From assembly GCA_030672285.1 (NCBI GenBank), contig DAOVGS010000068.1, positions 1-34,644 of the forward strand: DNA of 34,644 bases, in the 5' to 3' direction. A program made the translations under genes and the position numbers. Every line of letters starts with the position of its first letter. Within the stretch, counting starts at the first letter, position 1. The notes beneath the pieces were generated by a model, which did no database searches, was not told the DNA's origin, and saw only the letters and a program-made list of their open reading frames with translations. Origin of the DNA: Hadesarchaea archaeon (GTDB taxonomy: Archaea > Hadarchaeota > Hadarchaeia > Hadarchaeales > Hadarchaeaceae). Positions 2,216-34,644 of the stretch are shown here, one piece after another.

Positions 2216-3439
2216 TTAATCTCGGACGTACGGGTAGTCATCCTCGAGCCATTCGTAGGGGTCCCACTCCGAGGGGAAATAAATGTACTTAAGCCAGTTG
2301 TGATATGGATACGCCTCCTGACCCCACCGCAACAACTCGGCGTTGACATTGACCCACTGTCCATCAAGCTCCACATAAATTACCGCAATCAACCGCTCCC
2401 AGTAACCGCGGTACGGACGGCCGGTTTGCCCTCCCACGGAGAGGTCGTTGAGGTCCAAATAAACCGTAGTCCCAATGGGAATAAGGTTTTCTATTAATTC
2501 CATGGCTTCCACAGCCCCGAGGTCAGGCGGCGGGTTATACCAATTCATTTCTGGAGCGTCTACCCCCCCTCCAAATCTCACACACTCTGAGGTATTCTCA
2601 TATACCTCCCCGCTTGGGTCCAGTTCTACCACTATATTCTCTATCCATACCTGAATGGTATCACCATCGTAGATCCAAGTCACGGATGAAACTAGCTCGA
2701 AGTACGGAACCCCGGGTTCTGGTGCGGGCCCAGATATTGTTACCGGTGTGTCGGCGAAGTAAATGTGCCCACTTGGTTTGTATTTCAAACTCACGTAATA
2801 GGTTCCTTGCGCGAAAGTTCCTAAAGTGACATACGGTGAATCAAGTTCTTCAGTCCCGGTCGTCCAGCTGTAGATCCCCTCAGTTGAGCTCACCGAATAG
2901 TCCCAATCGCCAGAGGGTATGGATCCGGTCAGCACATTTATGCGTATGGTGCCGTTGCTGACCACCGGACTAGCAGCTAGTGCTGGATAAGGAGAGGGTT
3001 GCAACTCCTGATACCACTCTTCCGCAATCGCTTGGAATTGTTCAACCGTCCCGTGCGCGAGTATTAGGGTGCCACTATTTTCAATCACACCTGCTCCTTC
3101 GTTCCCCTTTTGGAAGGATAGAATATGGGAATTGTCAATAGTATTATCCAATATCTTTGACCATCCACGTTCTGACATTTCGGAACGATACCAATCCAAA
3201 ACTTCATCAGAGCTCGCTTCCGTTGTATACATCGAAGCCGAGATTCCGTGAGATTCAAAGGTGGCGAACAGCTCGGACCAAAGCTCAGGAACTTCAGAGG
3301 GAGTGGCTCCCGGATATACTGGCAACCTTTCCTTTGGGCTTTGTATCAAGAAAAAGTAACCAACTCCGATCAGGATGACAACGACGACAACTACTAGGAC
3401 AACGACAGAGCTTATTCCATTTTCTTTCATCCTACTCAC
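2216..3439 (-). CDS. Membrane-anchored staphylococcal-nuclease-like (TNase) protein
   Basis: This is a 407-aa protein. Residues 11-32 form one hydrophobic anchor after a short charged start, so the bulk should lie outside the membrane. Residues about 38-150 (VYPGATPSEVPELW and EVLDWYRSEMSERGW) look like a small alpha/beta domain I recognise only loosely. Residues about 155-240 look like an Ig-like beta domain. The C-terminal 160 residues are SNase-like: YDGDTIQVW (257-265) supplies the metal-binding Asp pair, VRFGGGVDAPE (287-297) matches the VRLxGIDAPE motif with the catalytic Arg and Glu, ERLIAVIY (348-355) gives a second Arg, and WVNVNAELLRWGQ matches the family's NVN-L-G segment. The longest frame starts at GTG 3439; ATG 3430, nine bases in, is an equally good start. 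It begins just after the methyltransferase stop. The likely role is an extracellular phosphodiesterase acting on DNA or RNA; the biological use is unknown. Confidence 0.7.
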   Translation of the reverse strand: MSRMKENGISSVVVLVVVVVVILIGVGYFFLIQSPKERLPVYPGATPSEVPELWSELFATFESHGISASMYTTEASSDEVLDWYRSEMSERGWSKILDNTIDNSHILSFQKGNEGAGVIENSGTLILAHGTVEQFQAIAEEWYQELQPSPYPALAASPVVSNGTIRINVLTGSIPSGDWDYSVSSTEGIYSWTTGTEELDSPYVTLGTFAQGTYYVSLKYKPSGHIYFADTPVTISGPAPEPGVPYFELVSSVTWIYDGDTIQVWIENIVVELDPSGEVYENTSECVRFGGGVDAPEMNWYNPPPDLGAVEAMELIENLIPIGTTVYLDLNDLSVGGQTGRPYRGYWERLIAVIYVELDGQWVNVNAELLRWGQEAYPYHNWLKYIYFPSEWDPYEWLEDDYPYVRD

Positions 3440-3440
3440 T

Positions 3441-4565
3441 TCACTTCTCCCAAAGCAATAAACCTTCTCGAGTTACTCCAACCTTCTTCCTCGCTGGCGT
3501 CGTACAAAAACGCCGGTTCACCACCAGTATGCGCTTCGCTTTGAAACCCGCCCGTTCCGCCAGCTCGCTCAGCGGAACGCATACCTCGACCACACCCTCA
3601 CGGGAGCAGGCATCGGACGTGACGAGGGCAACTTTGGCTCCAGGCTTACAGACGCGGTAAAGCTCCTGCAGTGCTGCGAACATGTCATTGAAATAAAGTT
3701 TCGTTTCGAGCGGTTTACCTTCGACGAATTCCCCAACCTCGGAAAAATCCTCCACCGCTCCCTCCTCCCGCACACCGATGAGTTGTTCCTGAGCCGGAGC
3801 ACCTAGGTCCAGCAACTGCTGCTCGATTCGGTAGGCGTGGATGTACTCCCGCTTGTTCAGGTAGGGTGGTGAGGTCACGACGGCATCAACGCTCTCGTCG
3901 GCCAGCTTGAGCTTTCGCGCATCGCAGTGCTCGATCGTCACCCTGGAGGCCTCCCCCTCGAACCGCTCGACATCGCCGCACATCCTCAAGAGCTGTCTTT
4001 TGAGAGCCTTTCGGAGGGGCGGCACTGGCTTCTTGACGACTCTTATCGCTGCGCCATCCTTGTGCGCCCAGCTGCACCGCATCGCCGCGTTCATCAACCC
4101 CAGCAACAGAAATTCGCGAATCCCCTCGTCCTCAACCTCTAGGATTTTTCGCTTGAAGAAGGCGATGTCCTCGAGCACGGGCTCCCGAAAAACTCTCGCG
4201 ACGAAGCTCGGCACCTCAACCTCTGGTCTCTCGAACTTCGATTTTATCAGCCCCCGAACTGCTTCCCCGAGTTCTTCAGCGTTGTAATCCCTGAGCTTCA
4301 CGCGCGAGGCGAACAACATGATTGGATGTATATCGTAACCAATACTATCTACCCCAAGTTGCTTGCACGCGAGCGGCGTCGTTCCGCACCCGACGAATGG
4401 GTCTAAGACGAGATCGCCTTCGCCGAGCCCCCAAGTTTCAGCAAGCAGGAGCACGAGGTCCCGCGAGAAAGCCTCCTTGAAGTAAAACCAATTGTGGACT
4501 GGAAGCCTTTTGTTCAGGATAAAAGTCGCGAGCCTACCGAGCCGAAGCTTTTCAACTATCTTCAC
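3441..4565 (-). CDS. DNA/RNA amino-methyltransferase with TSPPY motif
   Basis: A 374-aa S-adenosylmethionine-dependent methyltransferase. Residues 52-63 (LVLDPFVGCGTT) are the AdoMet-binding motif I with the FxGxG signature. IGYDIHP (75-81) is the acidic loop after strand 2. VVTSPPY (229-235) is motif IV, the catalytic (S/D)PPY loop that methylates exocyclic amino groups; the TSPPY form is typical of N4-cytosine DNA methylases. About 165 residues separate the two motifs, with a mostly helical insert. KPGAKVALVTSD (307-318) fits a late core strand. The GTG start at 4565 has GAGAGG eight bases upstream. The gene follows RFC-L by 21 bp and no restriction endonuclease is recognisable beside it, so it could be an orphan DNA methylase or a nucleic-acid (RNA) modification enzyme. 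The C-terminal tail recurs at 2108-2185. Confidence 0.75.
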   Translation of the reverse strand: MKIVEKLRLGRLATFILNKRLPVHNWFYFKEAFSRDLVLLLAETWGLGEGDLVLDPFVGCGTTPLACKQLGVDSIGYDIHPIMLFASRVKLRDYNAEELGEAVRGLIKSKFERPEVEVPSFVARVFREPVLEDIAFFKRKILEVEDEGIREFLLLGLMNAAMRCSWAHKDGAAIRVVKKPVPPLRKALKRQLLRMCGDVERFEGEASRVTIEHCDARKLKLADESVDAVVTSPPYLNKREYIHAYRIEQQLLDLGAPAQEQLIGVREEGAVEDFSEVGEFVEGKPLETKLYFNDMFAALQELYRVCKPGAKVALVTSDACSREGVVEVCVPLSELAERAGFKAKRILVVNRRFCTTPARKKVGVTREGLLLWEK

Positions 4566-17349: not shown

Positions 17350-17814
17350 TTAGGATTTTAGAACTTGCGCAAAAGGTTCCTCAGGCTGATCTTTCACCGT
17401 GCTATGAATTATGAATGTTTTCGTTTCCCTTACCCCTTTTAGTTTATGAATTTTTTTGACGAGTGCAGTCAGCTCCCTACTGTCTCTAGTCCAAACCTCT
17501 AGGATCGCGCTGTACTCTCCGAAGAGACGGTGGAACCCTGATATTTGATGAAATTTTTTGATCGTTTTTTCATTTTTGCGTCTAAGTTCACTTCGTGGAT
17601 CTTCTCGCAGAAAGACGTAGGCTCTCGTACCAAAACCAAATTTCTCCGGATTCAACCTTGCCACGAACGAGCGCACTACATCAGCCTCTTTGTACTGCTT
17701 GATTTTCTTCGCAACAGTTTGACGCGTAGTACCTACTTTTTTTGCGATTTCTGAAATTGATTGGTCGGAGTTACTAATGAGTTGAAGTAGTATTTTTTTG
17801 TCTAGTTTTCTCAT
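17350..17814 (-). CDS. AsnC/Lrp-family transcription regulator
   Basis: 154 aa. An N-terminal winged helix-turn-helix (about 4-50, LDKKILLQLISNSDQSISEI with recognition helix TTRQTVAKKIKQY) is followed by an alpha/beta effector domain of the AsnC type (about 70-145, AYVFLRED, YSAILEVWTRD, TKTFIIHSTV). Members form dimers to octamers and sense amino acids or other small molecules. It is divergent from PEP carboxykinase, with an inverted repeat in the 72-bp gap just upstream of its own start. The natural inference is autoregulation plus control of pck. The gene is AT-rich like pck and unlike elp3 and gatD around it. The ligand cannot be read from the sequence. Confidence 0.85.
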   Translation of the reverse strand: MRKLDKKILLQLISNSDQSISEIAKKVGTTRQTVAKKIKQYKEADVVRSFVARLNPEKFGFGTRAYVFLREDPRSELRRKNEKTIKKFHQISGFHRLFGEYSAILEVWTRDSRELTALVKKIHKLKGVRETKTFIIHSTVKDQPEEPFAQVLKS

Positions 17815-17824
17815 TTTATCGCTG

Positions 17825-17839
17825 TTAACATTTTGTTAA
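17825..17839. promoter_or_regulatory. Candidate Lrp operator: inverted repeat TTAACA-TTT-TGTTAA
   Basis: A perfect 6-bp inverted repeat around a 3-bp centre, 11 bp upstream of the regulator's start and about 48 bp upstream of the pck start. AT-rich dyads of this size are typical operators for AsnC/Lrp proteins. Occupancy here could block the regulator's own transcription or affect pck. Confidence 0.5.
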
Positions 17840-17846
17840 TACAAAT

Positions 17847-17860
17847 GCTTAAAAGCTTAA
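17847..17860. promoter_or_regulatory. Bidirectional TATA-like box between lrp-type gene and pck
   Basis: GCTTAAAAGCTTAA is nearly palindromic and reads as a TATA-like box on both strands. It lies about 30 nt before the chosen pck start (17887) and about 35 nt before the regulator start (17814). Its position right next to the inverted repeat supports shared regulation. Confidence 0.45.
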
Positions 17861-17886
17861 CTATTTTAACTTTGGGGGGTGAGGAC

Positions 17887-19815
17887 ATGGAGATTCGCTC
17901 GTTCGGGAAGATATCAAAAAGCGGCAAAGTTCCACCAAAAACTATGAGTATACTCAAGACCAGATTAGGGAAAGAAGATTATCAGAAACTTATCAAGATA
18001 AACAATCCCAAACTTCACCAATTCATTGCCGATTACGTGGAACTCTGTAATCCCGATGGGGTGTTTATCTGCACCGACTCACCTGAGGATATCCGCCATA
18101 TCAGGGAGGAGGCGATAAGAACTGGGGAGGAGAGAAGACTCGCCACAGATAGCCACACAGTTCATTTTGATGGTTATTATGATCAGGCAAGGGATGAGAA
18201 AAACACCAAATTCCTTCTCCCTAAGGGTGTTGATTTAGGCTCTAACATAAATGCAATAGATAAGGAAGAAGGACTCAAAGAAATTCACTCTCTACTAAAA
18301 AATATTATGCAATGGCGCAAACTATACATATGTTTCTTTTGCTTGGGACCAACGAATTCTAAATTCTCTTTACCTTGCGTTCAGCTTACAGATTCTAGTT
18401 ATGTGGCTCACTCATCAGATCTACTTTACAGGTTAGGGTATGAGGAATTCAAAAGGTTGGGTGGTTCCCAAGCTTTCTTCAAGTTCCTGCATGCTGAAGG
18501 GGAGCTTGAGCGGGGAGCGAGTAAAAATATTGACAAGCGCAGGATCTACATCGATCTCGATGAGGATACAGTATATAGCGTGAACACCCAATATGGCGGC
18601 AACACAATTGGGCACAAGAAGCTGGCGATGAGGCTGGCAATCCATAGAGCATCAAAAGAATGCTGGTTAACAGAGCACATGTTTCTTATGGGGATACATG
18701 GTCCAGGAGGGAGGGTAAGTTATTTCACCGGAGCATTTCCTTCCCTTTGTGGTAAGACTTCTACCTCTATGCTAAAAGGGGAGACCATAGTGGGAGACGA
18801 TATAGTCTATCTCAGGATAAAGGGCGGAAAGATGTGCGCTGTTAATGTGGAGAAAGGGATATTCGGAGTAATACAGGGAATAAACTCTAAAGATGATTCT
18901 ATACTATGGAAGGTACTTCATAGTCCAGGTGAGATCATATTCTCAAATGTGTTAGTTACTGAAGACAAAGATGTATACTGGGTTGGCAAGGACGGAGAAG
19001 TACCCAAAAAGGGAATCAACCACTCGAGGGAATGGATCTTTGGGAAAAAAGATACCGAAGGTAAGGAGATACCGCATTCACACCCAAACGCCCGTTTCAC
19101 CCTCGACATGAAGCTTTTAGGGAATGTCGACCCTGAGCTGAATAATCCTCAGGGCGTTGTGGTGAGTGGAATAATTTATGGGGGAAGAGATCCGGACACT
19201 TGGGTTCCAGTGGAGGAATCCTTTGATTGGGTACATGGCGTGATAACAAAAGGTGCATCACTTGAGTCGGAAACTACGGCCGCCGCCCTAGGAAAGAAAA
19301 AGGTCAGAAAGTTCAATCCCATGGCGAACTTGCCTTTCCTCTCGATAACTATAGGTGAATATATAGAGAATCACTTAAACTTTGGCCGTGCTCTGAAGAA
19401 TCCGCTCCCCATCTTCTCTGTTAATTACTTTCTGAAAGACTCAAATGGTGAATTCATGAATGATGTAAGAGATAAAGCAGTTTGGCTCAAATGGATGGAA
19501 CTGCGAGCGCGTAATGAAGTTGAAGCAGTAAAAACACCTACAGGCTTCATACCGAGATTCCAAGACCTCAAAAGACTGTTCAAAGAATTGCTCGGCAAAG
19601 ATTACTCCAAGGAGGATTACGTCAAACAATTTACCTTGAGGATCCCCGAAAACCTGTCGAAGATCGAGAGGATAATGAGGATCTATGAGGCCGAAGTTCC
19701 GAACACACCGAAGGTCCTGTTTGAGGTGCTGGGAGAGCAAAAGCGCAGGCTCCAAGAAGCTGCGAAAAAATATGGAAGTTACGTTTCTCCCTTCAAGTTA
19801 GCCGAAGCGGACTGA
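17887..19815 (+). CDS. pck: Phosphoenolpyruvate carboxykinase, GTP type
   Basis: Interconverts oxaloacetate and PEP with GTP/GDP, the entry to gluconeogenesis or, in some archaea, an anaplerotic route. Diagnostic motifs are GAFPSLCGKTSTSM (about 282-295), the PEPCK-specific P-loop whose Cys is characteristic of the GTP enzyme; GDDIVYL (303-309); the substrate-binding QYGGNTIGHKKLAMR (235-249); GGRDPDTWVPVEESFDW; and NPLPIFSVNYFLKD near the guanine-binding site. At 642 aa it is full length. I start at ATG 17887 because a strong GGGGGGTGAGG lies just before it; the frame continues up to a TTG at 17833 but would read through the promoter. The gene is markedly AT-rich (18 G/C in 60 bases at 18241-18300) and uses AGG/AGA arginine codons, unlike its neighbours, suggesting a different origin. 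Confidence 0.93.
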   Translation: MEIRSFGKISKSGKVPPKTMSILKTRLGKEDYQKLIKINNPKLHQFIADYVELCNPDGVFICTDSPEDIRHIREEAIRTGEERRLATDSHTVHFDGYYDQARDEKNTKFLLPKGVDLGSNINAIDKEEGLKEIHSLLKNIMQWRKLYICFFCLGPTNSKFSLPCVQLTDSSYVAHSSDLLYRLGYEEFKRLGGSQAFFKFLHAEGELERGASKNIDKRRIYIDLDEDTVYSVNTQYGGNTIGHKKLAMRLAIHRASKECWLTEHMFLMGIHGPGGRVSYFTGAFPSLCGKTSTSMLKGETIVGDDIVYLRIKGGKMCAVNVEKGIFGVIQGINSKDDSILWKVLHSPGEIIFSNVLVTEDKDVYWVGKDGEVPKKGINHSREWIFGKKDTEGKEIPHSHPNARFTLDMKLLGNVDPELNNPQGVVVSGIIYGGRDPDTWVPVEESFDWVHGVITKGASLESETTAAALGKKKVRKFNPMANLPFLSITIGEYIENHLNFGRALKNPLPIFSVNYFLKDSNGEFMNDVRDKAVWLKWMELRARNEVEAVKTPTGFIPRFQDLKRLFKELLGKDYSKEDYVKQFTLRIPENLSKIERIMRIYEAEVPNTPKVLFEVLGEQKRRLQEAAKKYGSYVSPFKLAEAD

Positions 19816-30174: not shown

Positions 30175-31011
30175 ATGCAAGTCAAAGATGTGATGACCAA
30201 GGAGGTCAAGTGGGTAGAGGTGCCCGGTACTCGAGCGGAGGCTCTCGATCTCTTGAGAAAAATAGGTGCAAGCGCGGTTCCTGTGGTGAAGCGGGGCACC
30301 GATGAGCTCGTGGGAATGGTGACGCTTCGCAAGTTGTTCGAGAAATCCGACGAGGAGCAGCTCGCGATGCTCGTCGATCGAGATGTTCTGACGGTTGCGC
30401 TGAGCGATAAGCTCGAGGATGCAGCGAATCGTATGCTCACGGCTCGCGTCCGAAGACTGCCCGTGCTGAAGGACGGAGAACTCGCTGGGATCATCACCGT
30501 TCAAGATATCATTTATCGCGCGCTCGCCGAGATGGACGTGGAGCGCCCAGCATCGGATTTCATGCACCCCCACATCATCGCCGTGTGGGATGGGACCCCG
30601 CTCAAAGCCGCGGTGGAGATCATAGACCTCTCTGGCTTTCGGACCCTCCCCGCGATTGATGAGGGTGGCAACTTGGTCGGGATCATCGATGACTCGGATA
30701 TCATCAAGATAAGTGAGGTCGAAACCGAATCGAAGATGAGCCAGATGACGGGGCGGAGCGAGGGCGATAAATGGACTTGGGACAGCGAAAACCGGATCTA
30801 CATCACCAAGCGGGAGCTGAAGGTCCCGGATAAGCTCGTGCGGGACGTGATGACGAAGGAGCTCGTGACGATAACACGCAAGACTCCCATTAGTAGGGCA
30901 GCTCAGCTCATGAAGCAGCACAGAATTGAGCAGACCCCAGTTCTATCTGCGGATGGCAAACTCATTGGGATTGTACGGGATATCGATCTGCTCCGCACTT
31001 TGGTCGAGTAG
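30175..31011 (+). CDS. Four-CBS-domain protein
   Basis: 278 aa made of four CBS motifs: VKDVMTKEVKWVEVPGTRAEA (about 3-60), VDRDVLTVALSDKLEDAANR (about 68-120), ASDFMHPHIIAVWDGTPLKA (about 125-178) and VRDVMTKELVTITRKTPISR (about 222-278). CBS pairs bind adenine nucleotides or related ligands and act as energy or metabolite sensors. There is no catalytic domain, so it is probably a regulator acting on a partner that is not obvious here. A GGATTAGGG purine run precedes the ATG. It is followed by glyS after a gap with a TATA-like box near 31016. Confidence 0.88.
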   Translation: MQVKDVMTKEVKWVEVPGTRAEALDLLRKIGASAVPVVKRGTDELVGMVTLRKLFEKSDEEQLAMLVDRDVLTVALSDKLEDAANRMLTARVRRLPVLKDGELAGIITVQDIIYRALAEMDVERPASDFMHPHIIAVWDGTPLKAAVEIIDLSGFRTLPAIDEGGNLVGIIDDSDIIKISEVETESKMSQMTGRSEGDKWTWDSENRIYITKRELKVPDKLVRDVMTKELVTITRKTPISRAAQLMKQHRIEQTPVLSADGKLIGIVRDIDLLRTLVE

Positions 31012-31065
31012 TGATAAATACTTAATTTTTTAGGGTTTGAGCGCGCTTCCAATTGCGGTGAAGTA

Positions 31066-32595
31066 GTGTCCAAAAAGCACGAGGAAGTCATGGAGCTCGC
31101 TAAGCGGCGTGGGTTCATCTGGCCATCGTTCGAAATTTACGGAGGCGTGGCAGGTTTCTACGATTTCGGGCCGCTCGGGGCACTGCTGAAAAATAAGATC
31201 ATCCAGAAGTGGCGCGAATTTTACGTGGTTCGGGAAGGGTTCTTCGAGATAGATTCGCCGAGCATTGTGCCCGAGGAGGTCCTGAAGGCGAGCGGGCATG
31301 TCGAGCACTTCGTTGACGCGATGGTCGAGTGTCAGAAGTGTGGGGCTGCTTTCAGGGTCGCGGACTTGGCGCGCGAACAGGCGGGCAAGGACATCGAGGG
31401 AATGACGAAGGAGGAGATGGATCGGTTCGTTAAGGGACACAAGGTGCGCTGCCCCGATTGCGGCGGCGAGCTGGGGAAAATTTTCGATTTCAACGCGATG
31501 TTTCGAACGGCGATCGGGCCTGGAAGCCAGCGCGTGGGTTACCTGAGGCCGGAAACTGCACAGGGAATTTTCATCGATTTCAAGCGGCTCCAGCGCCACG
31601 CGCGGGGTAAGTTGCCTTTCGGGGTGGTGCAGATCGGCAAGGGTTACCGCAACGAGATCTCCCCGCGCCAGGGTATCATAAGACTGCGGGAGTTCACGAT
31701 GGCGGAGGCCGAGGTCTTCTTCGACCCCGGGGACCCGCATCACCCGAGGTTTTCCGAGCTGGCGGGTGAACAACTCAGGCTTTGGTTGGCGAAAGACCAA
31801 GAGGAGGGCAAGGAGCAGTTGACCGAGGTGACGGTCGAGCAGGCGGTCAAGGCGAAGCTGGTCTGCAACGAGCTCATGGCATACTACCTCGCGCTCACCA
31901 AGCGCTTCTTGCTAGACTTGGGCATTCCGAACGAGGTGATTCGCTTCAGGGAGCAGACCCCCGGGCAAAGAGCTCATTACTCGAGCGAAACTTGGGACGC
32001 CGAGGTTTTGACGGAGCGGTTCGGCTGGGTCGAAATCGCTGGGCTAGCCTACCGCACGGATTACGACCTCTCCCGCCACGCCCAGTTCAGCGGGGAGGAC
32101 TTGACGATATTTTCAGCTGACAAGAAGCGGAAGGTGCTTTGCCACGTGGTCGAGCCCTCCTACGGCATCGATCGTCCACTTTATTGCGCGCTTGAACATG
32201 CATACGTGCAGGAGAAGAAGCGCAAGTACTTCCGGCTGAGGAAGGAGCTGGCCCCAATCGAGGTCGGCATCTTCCCCTTGCTCAACCGCGTGGGCATGCC
32301 TGAGAAGGCCCAAGAGGTGTACGGGAATCTAAAGCTAAAGGGATTCATGGCAGAGTACGACGATGCTGGATCAATAGGAAGGAGATATGCCAGAGCTGAT
32401 GAGATAGGTGTCCCCTACTGTGTTACTATCGATCACGAAACTCTAAAACAAAATGATGTAACCATCCGTCATAGAGACACGACGAAGCAAATTAGAGTGG
32501 ACATTGAAAAATTACCAGATGTCCTTAAGAAATTGCTTAACGATGAAATAGAATTTGATAAAGCTGGAAAACCGATCGAAACTACTTCGAAATAA
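31066..32595 (+). CDS. glyS: Glycyl-tRNA synthetase (archaeal/eukaryal type)
   Basis: Class II aaRS that charges tRNA(Gly). Motif 1 region GVAGFYDFGPLGALLKNKII, a zinc-ribbon-like insert with CQKC (about 86-89) and CPDC (about 129-132), motif 2 (VQIGKGYRNEISPRQGIIR and REFTMAEAEVFF) and motif 3 (PSYGIDRPLYCALEHA) are all present. The C-terminal anticodon domain ends VLKKLLNDEIEFD. At 509 aa it is standard for this type. The start is GTG 31066 with GCGGTGA five bases upstream. From about 32325 to the stop, base use changes abruptly: at 31981-32040 I count 36 G/C of 60, but at 32521-32580 20 of 60, with AGA and ATA codons in place of CGC/CGG and ATC. The reading frame and protein sequence are intact across the switch. 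Confidence 0.95.
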   Translation: MSKKHEEVMELAKRRGFIWPSFEIYGGVAGFYDFGPLGALLKNKIIQKWREFYVVREGFFEIDSPSIVPEEVLKASGHVEHFVDAMVECQKCGAAFRVADLAREQAGKDIEGMTKEEMDRFVKGHKVRCPDCGGELGKIFDFNAMFRTAIGPGSQRVGYLRPETAQGIFIDFKRLQRHARGKLPFGVVQIGKGYRNEISPRQGIIRLREFTMAEAEVFFDPGDPHHPRFSELAGEQLRLWLAKDQEEGKEQLTEVTVEQAVKAKLVCNELMAYYLALTKRFLLDLGIPNEVIRFREQTPGQRAHYSSETWDAEVLTERFGWVEIAGLAYRTDYDLSRHAQFSGEDLTIFSADKKRKVLCHVVEPSYGIDRPLYCALEHAYVQEKKRKYFRLRKELAPIEVGIFPLLNRVGMPEKAQEVYGNLKLKGFMAEYDDAGSIGRRYARADEIGVPYCVTIDHETLKQNDVTIRHRDTTKQIRVDIEKLPDVLKKLLNDEIEFDKAGKPIETTSK

Positions 32596-32670
32596 ATTCT
32601 TCCCCTTTTTCAGTCATTTTCAACCCGACCTGCAATCCGGCATGCGCTTTTAAGCGATTTTCCCACAGAG

Positions 32671-32711
32671 GGCACCGAAAGTATTCCATAAATAATACGG
32701 AAATCGGTGCC
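32671..32711. other. Long composite inverted repeat between glyS and the AEC transporter gene
   Basis: GGCACCGA (32671-32678) pairs with TCGGTGCC (32704-32711), and within it GTATT (32681-32685) pairs with AATAC (32694-32698) around an 8-nt loop. The 13 paired positions form an interrupted hairpin of 41 nt. It stands in the 155-bp gap between two convergent gene ends, so it may be a bidirectional transcription end, an mRNA 3' element or a small relic element. A smaller dyad CGCTTTTAAGCG lies at about 32644-32656. I see no protein-coding signal in the gap. Confidence 0.5.
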
Positions 32712-32750
32712 AGTTGCAACACCCTTAAAATCGGCTGGGTGAGGAACTCG

Positions 32751-33719
32751 TCAGAAAACGAGATAGATCATGAGGGGCAGCGCCACGAAGAGGGAGACAA
32801 GGGTCAGGTAGAACACCATCGCCCCGTAGAGCTTGAGGTCCAGCTTGAAATTGTAGGCGAGGAAGACGTTGAAGACGGCGGGCGGCATCATCGCCTGAAT
32901 GAGCGCGGGCTTGGGCGAGATATCGTCGGCTATGCTCAACCCGGCCATCCCGATTAATGCGAAGACCACGAGCGGACAGACCAAGAACCTTATCGCGCCC
33001 ACGGTCGCCAGCTTCGATACGTACTTGCGGGGGTTGACTAGGGGCATTTGGTAGCCGACGAACAGGAGCATCAGGGCGAAGAAGGGTTTGACGAGATAAA
33101 CGTCAAATGTATCCTGTACTACACCCCACAAGTGAGCCTGAAAACCGACGAAGAGCATCGCTGTTATTAACGCTATGGTCGCTGGGAAGACCAGCACGTT
33201 TTCAAGCACGAAGCGCAGGCTTACGCGTCGCTTGCTGGCGGATATCGCGAGCGCCACCCCAAAGACTAAGTGCGGGATCCCTATCGCCACCGCGTAAAGG
33301 CTCGCGGGACCCAAGCCCCCGATCCCGACCATGGCGTATACAAGGGGCAGCCCGAGGTAGGTGACGTTCATGAATGATGAGTTCAAGGTGAGCGCGATGG
33401 TCGTCTTTCGGTCGTGGCGCATGAGGGTCGAGAGCCCCACCGCCAGCACGAAACAAACGCCCAACCCCACGAAGGCAAAAACTGCCGCGTTGCCGAATCC
33501 TAATATTTCGCGTAGGCTGTAGCGGGCTATCGAGACGAAGACCACGGTCGGCAACATTATCCAGAGGATGCCCACGTTGAGGAGGCGGAAGCCCGGCTTG
33601 GCGAACCTTCCCAAAATTTTGACGCGACCCGTGATAACCCTTATGGCAACCCCGAGGACGATGAGCCCTATGGCGTAGAAGGCGGGCGTTAGGTAATCTC
33701 CAGGCGTGGGCCTCACCAA
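32751..33719 (-). CDS. AEC-family (auxin-efflux-carrier-like) transporter
   Basis: 322-aa polytopic membrane protein, about ten hydrophobic segments and few charged residues. The conserved N-G/A-P-type motifs of the AEC family are visible: TLNSSFMNVTYLGLPLVYA (about residues 107-125, matching N-x-GF-x-GLP) and MPPAVFNVFLAYNFKLD (about 285-301, matching the second PxA-x-NxFLxA repeat). The inverted two-half architecture of the bile acid/AEC fold is consistent. Bacterial relatives carry organic acids (malonate, malate); the substrate here is not known. It lies directly before the aminotransferase on the same strand (8 bp), suggesting co-transcription and possibly amino acid or keto acid exchange. 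Confidence 0.8.
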   Translation of the reverse strand: MVRPTPGDYLTPAFYAIGLIVLGVAIRVITGRVKILGRFAKPGFRLLNVGILWIMLPTVVFVSIARYSLREILGFGNAAVFAFVGLGVCFVLAVGLSTLMRHDRKTTIALTLNSSFMNVTYLGLPLVYAMVGIGGLGPASLYAVAIGIPHLVFGVALAISASKRRVSLRFVLENVLVFPATIALITAMLFVGFQAHLWGVVQDTFDVYLVKPFFALMLLFVGYQMPLVNPRKYVSKLATVGAIRFLVCPLVVFALIGMAGLSIADDISPKPALIQAMMPPAVFNVFLAYNFKLDLKLYGAMVFYLTLVSLFVALPLMIYLVF

Positions 33720-33727
33720 CTAGCTGT

Positions 33728-34644
33728 TTACTTGATCTCCTTCAAAGCTCGCTCGAATATCTCCAGCCCGACATCGGCTTGTTCACGCGTTAGGATGAGC
33801 GGCGGGGCGAGCCGTAGCGAGGACACCCCAGCGCCGAGGAGCACGAGCCCGCGTTCGAAGGCTTTGGTCATGAGCTTATCCCTTTCGGCCTTGGCTGGCT
33901 CCTTCGTTCCCCTGTCCTTGACTAACTCGACGCCGATCATCATGCCCTTGCCCCGGACATCGCCGATCAGCTCGTGTTTATCGGCGAGCTCCTTGAGCCT
34001 CTTGAGCATGTACCCACCAACCTCGGCGGCATTTTTGGCAAGTCGCTCAGTTTTGATTATATCCAGCATGGCGAGTGCAGCCGAACATCCGACCGGGCTA
34101 CCGCCCATCGTGTTCTCATGGGCCCCGGGCTCCCAGTCCATGAGCTCTGCCCGCGAGATGGTCGCGCCGAACGGCAGGCCGCCGGCGATCCCCTTCCCAA
34201 CTGTTATGATATCAGGTTCGACCCCCCAGTGCTCGCACGCGAACCACTTGCCCGTGCGGCAGAGCCCCGACTGGATCTCATCCGCTACGAAAATTATGTT
34301 TTTCTCCCTGCAGAGCTTCGCGAGGGCCTGTAGGTATCCATCGGGCGGAACTATGTAGCCGCCTGCACCCTGAATCGGCTCGACGATCGCACAAGCCACA
34401 TCATCGGGCGGAACCACCTTCTTGAACATTATTTCCTCGATGTAGTCGACACACCACAGCCCGCAATCGGGATAGGTCTGCCTGAAGGGGCAGCGATAGC
34501 AGTAAGCGTAGGGCACGTGGAAAACCCCCTGCATCATGCCCTTGAAGTGGCGGCGCACGGCAACGTTCGTGGTCGTGAGCTGGAGGGAGCCCATCGTCCG
34601 CCCGTGAAATCCCCCGATGAATGCGAGCACGTAAAAATTGCGGG
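33728..34644 (-). CDS. Class-III PLP aminotransferase, partial (N-terminus off the right edge)
   Basis: The coding frame continues through the right edge (the codons before the apparent GTG at 34630 read RNFY), so about 100 or more N-terminal residues are missing. GGFHGRTMGS is the cofactor-phosphate loop, AIVEPIQGAGGYIVPPDGYL, VADEIQSGLCRTG (PLP-contacting Asp) and DIITVGKGIAGGLPFGATIS (Lys that binds PLP) are the core motifs. A Cys-rich insert, YCYRCPFRQTYPDCGLWC, sits near the start of the visible part and is typical of an archaeal subgroup of gamma-aminobutyrate/ornithine/amino-acid-racemase-like enzymes. The substrate cannot be decided: 4-aminobutyrate, ornithine, or a racemase function are all possible. 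It is coupled to the downstream AEC transporter gene. Confidence 0.88.
   Translation of the reverse strand, partial: RNFYVLAFIGGFHGRTMGSLQLTTTNVAVRRHFKGMMQGVFHVPYAYCYRCPFRQTYPDCGLWCVDYIEEIMFKKVVPPDDVACAIVEPIQGAGGYIVPPDGYLQALAKLCREKNIIFVADEIQSGLCRTGKWFACEHWGVEPDIITVGKGIAGGLPFGATISRAELMDWEPGAHENTMGGSPVGCSAALAMLDIIKTERLAKNAAEVGGYMLKRLKELADKHELIGDVRGKGMMIGVELVKDRGTKEPAKAERDKLMTKAFERGLVLLGAGVSSLRLAPPLILTREQADVGLEIFERALKEIK

Follow-up and report, generated by a model that had tools for sequence, protein, structure and literature searches.

Why does the gene for glycyl-tRNA synthetase change its base composition so sharply near its 3' end? The gene, glyS, occupies positions 31066-32595 (plus strand) of the window, the whole 34,644-nucleotide stretch that was analysed, which is contig 58 of a 958-kb Hadesarchaea assembly in 69 contigs (G000). 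It is an intact frame of 509 amino acids with a GTG start and with Pfam matches to tRNA-synt_2b and HGTP_anticodon. A sequence-only reading of the window had placed an abrupt change of composition at about 32325, and the change is real: GC3 drops from 0.77 to 0.30, with a log-likelihood gain of 32.1 where 500 permutations reached 8.2 at most, and total GC is 0.585 in the body of the gene and 0.384 in its tail. The change point that fits best is codon 432 (32362). Codon 420 (32326) is a close runner-up (-0.67), so the earlier position is acceptable for composition; the breakpoint drawn from phylogeny is 20-40 bp downstream of it (see below). Elsewhere in the window, the lowest G+C (39-45%) is found at 17501-19500, over genes for an AsnC-type regulator and a GTP-type PEP carboxykinase; this stretch is possibly another import.

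When 25 glyS genes were aligned by codon and compared, a strong GC3 break was common to those of three genomes from one genus: G000, G001 (JAUWBN010000001.1, Hadesarchaea archaeon, phylum Hadarchaeota) and G002. The genomes nearest to these three, G008 (nearest to G000 and G001) and G007 (nearest to G002), have a GC-rich native tail. Third-position identity between G000 and G002 is 0.73 over codons 1-420 and 0.92 over codons 433-509; between G000 and G008 it goes from 0.83 to 0.22. No near match to the tail was found beyond G001 and G002 among the 394 genomes searched. Two other glyS genes show composition breaks of their own. The break in G009 (L015) is at codon 490, where the frame crosses a stop read as X. 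G004 (L034 1761-3075), from the same genus, has a weaker break and an AT-rich end of different sequence that is shorter by 15 codons; the next gene, also AT-rich, encodes a GNAT acetyltransferase. Composition had suggested G004 as a fourth carrier, and it was rejected because its tail sequence differs and a search for an endonuclease remnant downstream found none.

The body and the tail of the gene have different histories, and their distribution within the genus is discordant. In protein trees, the body yields ((G000,G001),G008) and (G002,G007), and the tail places G000, G001 and G002 together, with a weakly supported attraction to AT-rich archaea. In AU tests on DNA trees (13 rows), body sequences reject the tail grouping (p 4e-5), and tail sequences reject the body groupings (p 3.8e-4, p 5.8e-5). 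Separate phylogenies of the two parts had been proposed as a check on whether their trees match; they do not, and one tree for both parts is rejected. The four-taxon informative sites, 260 in total across 30266-33750, were classed as body-type, transfer-type or other. To the left of 32358 these classes number 122, 5 and 9, respectively; the counts are 0, 60 and 3 in 32358-32600, then 1, 3 and 0 in 32601-32800, and 47, 4 and 6 to the right of 32800. The suggestion of gene conversion with an AT-rich copy is borne out by the discordant trees together with the block of 60 transfer-type sites that holds no body-type site.

These sites also delimit the transferred segment. The left breakpoint falls in 32344-32364, between the last site that supports the body tree (32343) and the first that supports transfer (32364). 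Codons 421-430 are still native, because they match G008, a genome with the native tail. The gene can thus be divided into a native body at 31066-32357 (plus strand, about codons 1-430) and a foreign AT-rich 3' end at 32358-32595 (plus strand, about codons 431-509). The right breakpoint lies somewhere in 32775-32867, bounded by 32774, where the block has its final transfer-type site, and by 32867, the next body-type site, so the segment runs beyond the stop codon. The sequence-only reading had the tail covering the anticodon domain; the second half of that domain (Pfam match 400-489) is in fact what it covers, not the whole.

What lies just beyond the tail suggests how it may have arrived. Aligned with G001, the window splits into two blocks; in the window they share 8 bases, and in G001 1.27 kb lies between them. 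The 1.27-kb insert in G001 is AT-rich, and its opposite strand encodes a 412-residue protein, the sole long open frame, which matches LAGLIDADG_3 (PF14528) at 27.2 bits (Pfam cut-off 22.5). A profile built from this protein and seven distant relatives matches I-DmoI (PDB 5ak9 and others) with an E value of 0.0024. The first motif is VGDG, with aspartate or glutamate at its acidic position in all eight alignment rows, and the second is an AEGS-type motif whose glutamate, E243, is invariant in the alignment; by analogy with I-DmoI, we take these acidic residues to be catalytic. The gene is thus predicted to encode a LAGLIDADG homing endonuclease. It overlaps the end of glyS by 14 bp, tail to tail, and its GC3 of 0.30 equals that of the glyS tail.

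Searches of Pfam and NCBIfam with this protein gave only LAGLIDADG and helix-turn-helix (winged-helix) matches, with neither an HO/VDE-like intein part nor a zinc finger, and phmmer against PDB gave only a weak match to a MarR-type helix-turn-helix. A single-sequence AlphaFold2 model was set aside (mean pLDDT 42). Close relatives were confined to the G001 record itself in genome_contigs, and viral_contigs held none. The nearest other relative is a stand-alone protein of an AT-rich archaeal genome, G378 (L066 4876-6081), 30% identical over residues 70-343. Homing as an intein or group I intron was discarded as an explanation, since the endonuclease gene follows a full-length glyS on the opposite strand and the window has no Rfam match. 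An intact glyS-linked endonuclease is present in only one of the 28 genomes of the phylum, G001, which counts against a homing element, as does the lack of a donor among the 394 genomes searched with the tail.

The window and G002 nevertheless retain remnants of the endonuclease gene. At 32582-32614 (minus strand), overlapping the glyS end, the window holds its last ten codons (TEKGEEFISK) and stop, identical in frame and residues to the end of the G001 gene. The remnant in G002 is slightly longer and has a different end. The 8-mer TTCAGTCA at 32609-32616 occurs once in the window, whereas in G001 the insert has a copy at each end; in the window it is a deletion scar. The different ends of the remnants, together with this repeat that is single in the window and flanks the insert in G001, argue for two separate losses of the endonuclease. 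The adjoining segment, 32617-32730, aligns between G000 and G001, where it lies upstream of the endonuclease gene, and is absent from G002, G007 and G008; it may be a leader or promoter of that gene. Upstream of the lost gene, an inverted repeat (CACCGA...TCGGTG) was noted by eye at 32673-32709, possibly a terminator or operator.

Past the remnant, the G002 sequence aligns with the native end of glyS in G007, with a local score of 48 against a shuffle maximum of 28 (500 shuffles). The window and G001 share this stretch with G002, and we therefore assign 32731-32773 (plus strand) of the window to the native 3' end of glyS, as a copy that has been displaced and has decayed. The corresponding stretches of G000 and G001, scored by themselves against G007, reach 23 and 18 and stay within their own shuffle null, which counts against the assignment. 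The layout as a whole agrees with an element that would push the old gene end outwards. The sequence-only reading had noted neither this displaced end nor the endonuclease of a relative and its remnant in the window.

A second case was found when the neighbour genes of 20 LAGLIDADG_3 loci in 11 genomes, out of many more matches, were scanned for composition breaks. The largest break (gain 37.9) was in metG on contig 2 of G000 itself (L107 1512-4537). Residues 350-610 of its product are 95% identical to G001 and group with G001 and G008 at 100/99. Residues 1-340 are 54% identical to G001, 94% to G003 and 82% to G012, and on this part the grouping with G001 and G008 is rejected (AU, p 2e-7); the converse, G000 with G003 and G012 on residues 350-610, is not rejected (p 0.08). 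Directly next to the foreign 5' end is a LAGLIDADG gene (23.4 bits; cut-off 22.5), on whose far side 91 bp of the native start of metG are found, 96.7% identical to G001 (E 9e-40). In G003, a 15-residue remnant of the metG-linked endonuclease precedes metG. We read metG as a second, independent and clearer case, in which the 5' end has been replaced in a mirror image of glyS.

The glyS gene of the window is very probably the footprint of a homing element that replaced its last 79 codons and whose endonuclease has since been lost here. This reading draws on the chimera and its discordant tails, the G001 endonuclease and its remnants, the displaced end in G002, the equal GC3, the metG case and a yeast precedent in which cleavage was demonstrated (PMC7282813, as far as its account of that system is used here). 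What we infer is that the enzyme cleaves, where it cuts, that the tail resists it and how the break is repaired. The complete element, as in G001, would consist of the replacement glyS 3' end, the antisense endonuclease gene and then a displaced piece of native glyS. Its endonuclease would cut glyS alleles with a native 3' end, at a site predicted to lie within native codons 431-496, and the break would be repaired from the element-bearing allele. Conserved glyS upstream of codon 430 would provide the homology on the left, and the displaced glyS end together with the gene downstream would do so on the right. The recipient would gain both the endonuclease gene and the diverged tail, which would keep GlyRS functional and should escape recognition. 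The endonuclease gene would later be lost, by deletion between the 8-bp repeats in the window and by a different deletion in G002, and the swapped tail would persist.

Several other explanations of the tail have to be weighed against this homing element. An assembly chimera of two strains, the alternative offered by the sequence-only reading, would suit a metagenome-type assembly in 69 contigs such as G000. However, the identical junction is present in the separately assembled G001 and G002, which have different bodies and whose nearest relatives keep the native tail; the break is thus no assembly artefact, the relatives already refute a chimera, and we give this explanation almost no credence. 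Selection or a local mutation bias might instead have reduced G+C at the 3' end of glyS, as the weaker low-GC3 end of different sequence in G004 could illustrate. Such a process has to contend with tails that are nearly identical in G000, G001 and G002 though the bodies differ, with the conflict between body and tail trees, and with 24 amino-acid changes from G008 over the 79 codons of the tail, and its probability is negligible.

The remaining two alternatives concern the insert and its neighbour. The 8-bp direct repeats that flank the 1.27-kb segment of G001 might be the target-site duplication of a transposon or integrase insertion, but the only long frame of the insert is the LAGLIDADG one; moreover, one copy of the repeat lies inside that frame and G002 retains endonuclease sequence past that copy, arguing that the difference was made by deletion rather than insertion. 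We regard such an insertion as highly improbable. The divergent glyS end might also have been moved by ordinary homologous recombination, with the endonuclease gene beside it by chance. Recombination itself is established by the informative sites and the AU tests, and nuclease cleavage is only predicted. Yet the endonuclease is where the swap stops, and its gene matches the tail in composition and overlaps glyS; G002 has a displaced native end past the endonuclease, and plain recombination would not create a second, shifted copy of the old end; and metG has the same anatomy. Chance proximity is therefore unlikely, and the homing element is preferred.

How far does this arrangement extend? LAGLIDADG_3 matches occur in 26 of the 28 genomes of the phylum, and being so common, they lend weight by nearness to a chimeric gene only together with displaced ends and remnants. 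A wider test took 30 LAGLIDADG loci and 94 non-endonuclease control genes and asked whether the adjacent gene has a displaced copy at the opposite flank of the endonuclease or control gene. At E <=0.01, five of the 30 loci scored (metG, G000 aspS, the ATP-NAD kinase gene of G012 and two weak cases); three did so at E <1e-5, and the G001 glyS locus gave no score. Two controls also scored, a run of CBS repeats and a DNA-methylase-like gene in the window, and the difference between 3/30 and 2/94 is not significant (p 0.09), which counts against the homing reading. At aspS (L105 3285-5819, contig 45 of G000), the synthetase gene is followed by a LAGLIDADG gene (64.6 bits) and then by a second AspRS C-terminus with its own stop, in which residues 415-452 are duplicated (82%). 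We rank aspS as a third case, and a weaker one, because most of its in-frame end still agrees with G001. In G012 (L073 121-2658), the LAGLIDADG gene has the ATP-NAD kinase gene on one side and, on the other, a displaced copy of 23 N-terminal residues of the kinase, 70% identical. The control locus in the window consists of the DNA-methylase-like gene at 3441-4565, a displaced copy of its last 21 residues at 2123-2185, and between them a gene at 2216-3439 (minus strand) that has no Pfam match and that, judged by eye, may encode a secreted staphylococcal-type nuclease.

A second family of stand-alone LAGLIDADG genes (L067-L070, L072, L098 and L089) lies just downstream of tfb at seven of the 25 Hadarchaeota tfb loci, with a remnant in G012; members compared over at least 340 residues are about 55-64% identical. 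Replaced tfb ends were looked for at these endonucleases and none were seen, which counts against the homing reading and argues that not every stand-alone LAGLIDADG gene here swaps gene ends. Inteins are probably present in six tfb frames, which measure 650 to 860 aa.

On balance, we lean towards the broader proposal that Hadarchaeota host natural home-and-rescue elements: LAGLIDADG genes at either end of essential genes, chiefly those for aminoacyl-tRNA synthetases, would cut unprotected alleles and swap in their own diverged, resistant end. Gene ends would thus move between lineages, once including the whole MetRS catalytic domain, and chimeric synthetases would remain after the element is lost. 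If so, mosaic aminoacyl-tRNA synthetases, a source of disturbance in deep phylogenies, would gain a concrete mechanistic explanation, and the swaps could be counted from their scars. Homing by replacement of gene ends, described for fungal nuclei and mitochondria in the accounts drawn on here (PMC7282813, PMC3630166), would reach archaeal chromosomes, and would extend to essential translation genes and to 5' ends. It would also provide a natural counterpart to engineered home-and-rescue drives.

In the open-licence PubMed Central literature, judged mostly by title and the start of the abstract, no archaeal chromosomal example of such elements was found. The archaeal endonuclease I-DmoI is located in a 23S rRNA intron. 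The glyS-linked protein resembles it in its two LAGLIDADG motifs and its sequence-profile match, and differs in being stand-alone. The free-standing endonucleases of T4-like phages (intronless homing) likewise act without an intron or intein, and repair of the break co-converts the flanks; these are phage systems, and the portion of PMC2988022 used here does not describe a displaced copy of the host-gene end. In engineered home-and-rescue and Cleave-and-Rescue drives (PMC7968924, PMC7951863), a nuclease attacks an essential gene and the element supplies a working copy, but these are synthetic Cas9 systems in animals and the likeness is one of analogy only.

The closest parallels are fungal. 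The mitochondrial mORFs of Glomus (atp6, atp9, cox2, nad3) and Allomyces (atp6) create hybrid genes with the order foreign gene end, endonuclease ORF, displaced native end (PMC3630166, in the part that describes them); that order is found here with a clear displaced end at G002 glyS and G000 metG. The mORFs are organellar, several form in-frame fusions with the host gene, and their endonuclease is on the host gene's strand, whereas the elements here are chromosomal and stand-alone, and antisense at glyS. WHO elements of Torulaspora and Lachancea yeasts home into FBA1 and replace its 3' end, leaving the old end downstream; resistance comes through allelic difference, and cleavage has been demonstrated (PMC7282813, for the features covered here). 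The likeness includes a stand-alone endonuclease gene beside a conserved host gene, a replaced 3' end, the old end past the endonuclease (present at G002 glyS and G000 metG) as a putative second homology arm, scars and discordant trees, and resistance by allelic difference is predicted here as well. The elements here fall outside the WHO family, since Pfam and NCBIfam show neither the HO/VDE-type protein nor the zinc finger; they have instead a LAGLIDADG_3 and winged-helix protein whose cleavage is predicted from sequence alone, and they occupy aminoacyl-tRNA synthetase genes of an archaeal chromosome, where at metG it is the 5' end that was replaced.
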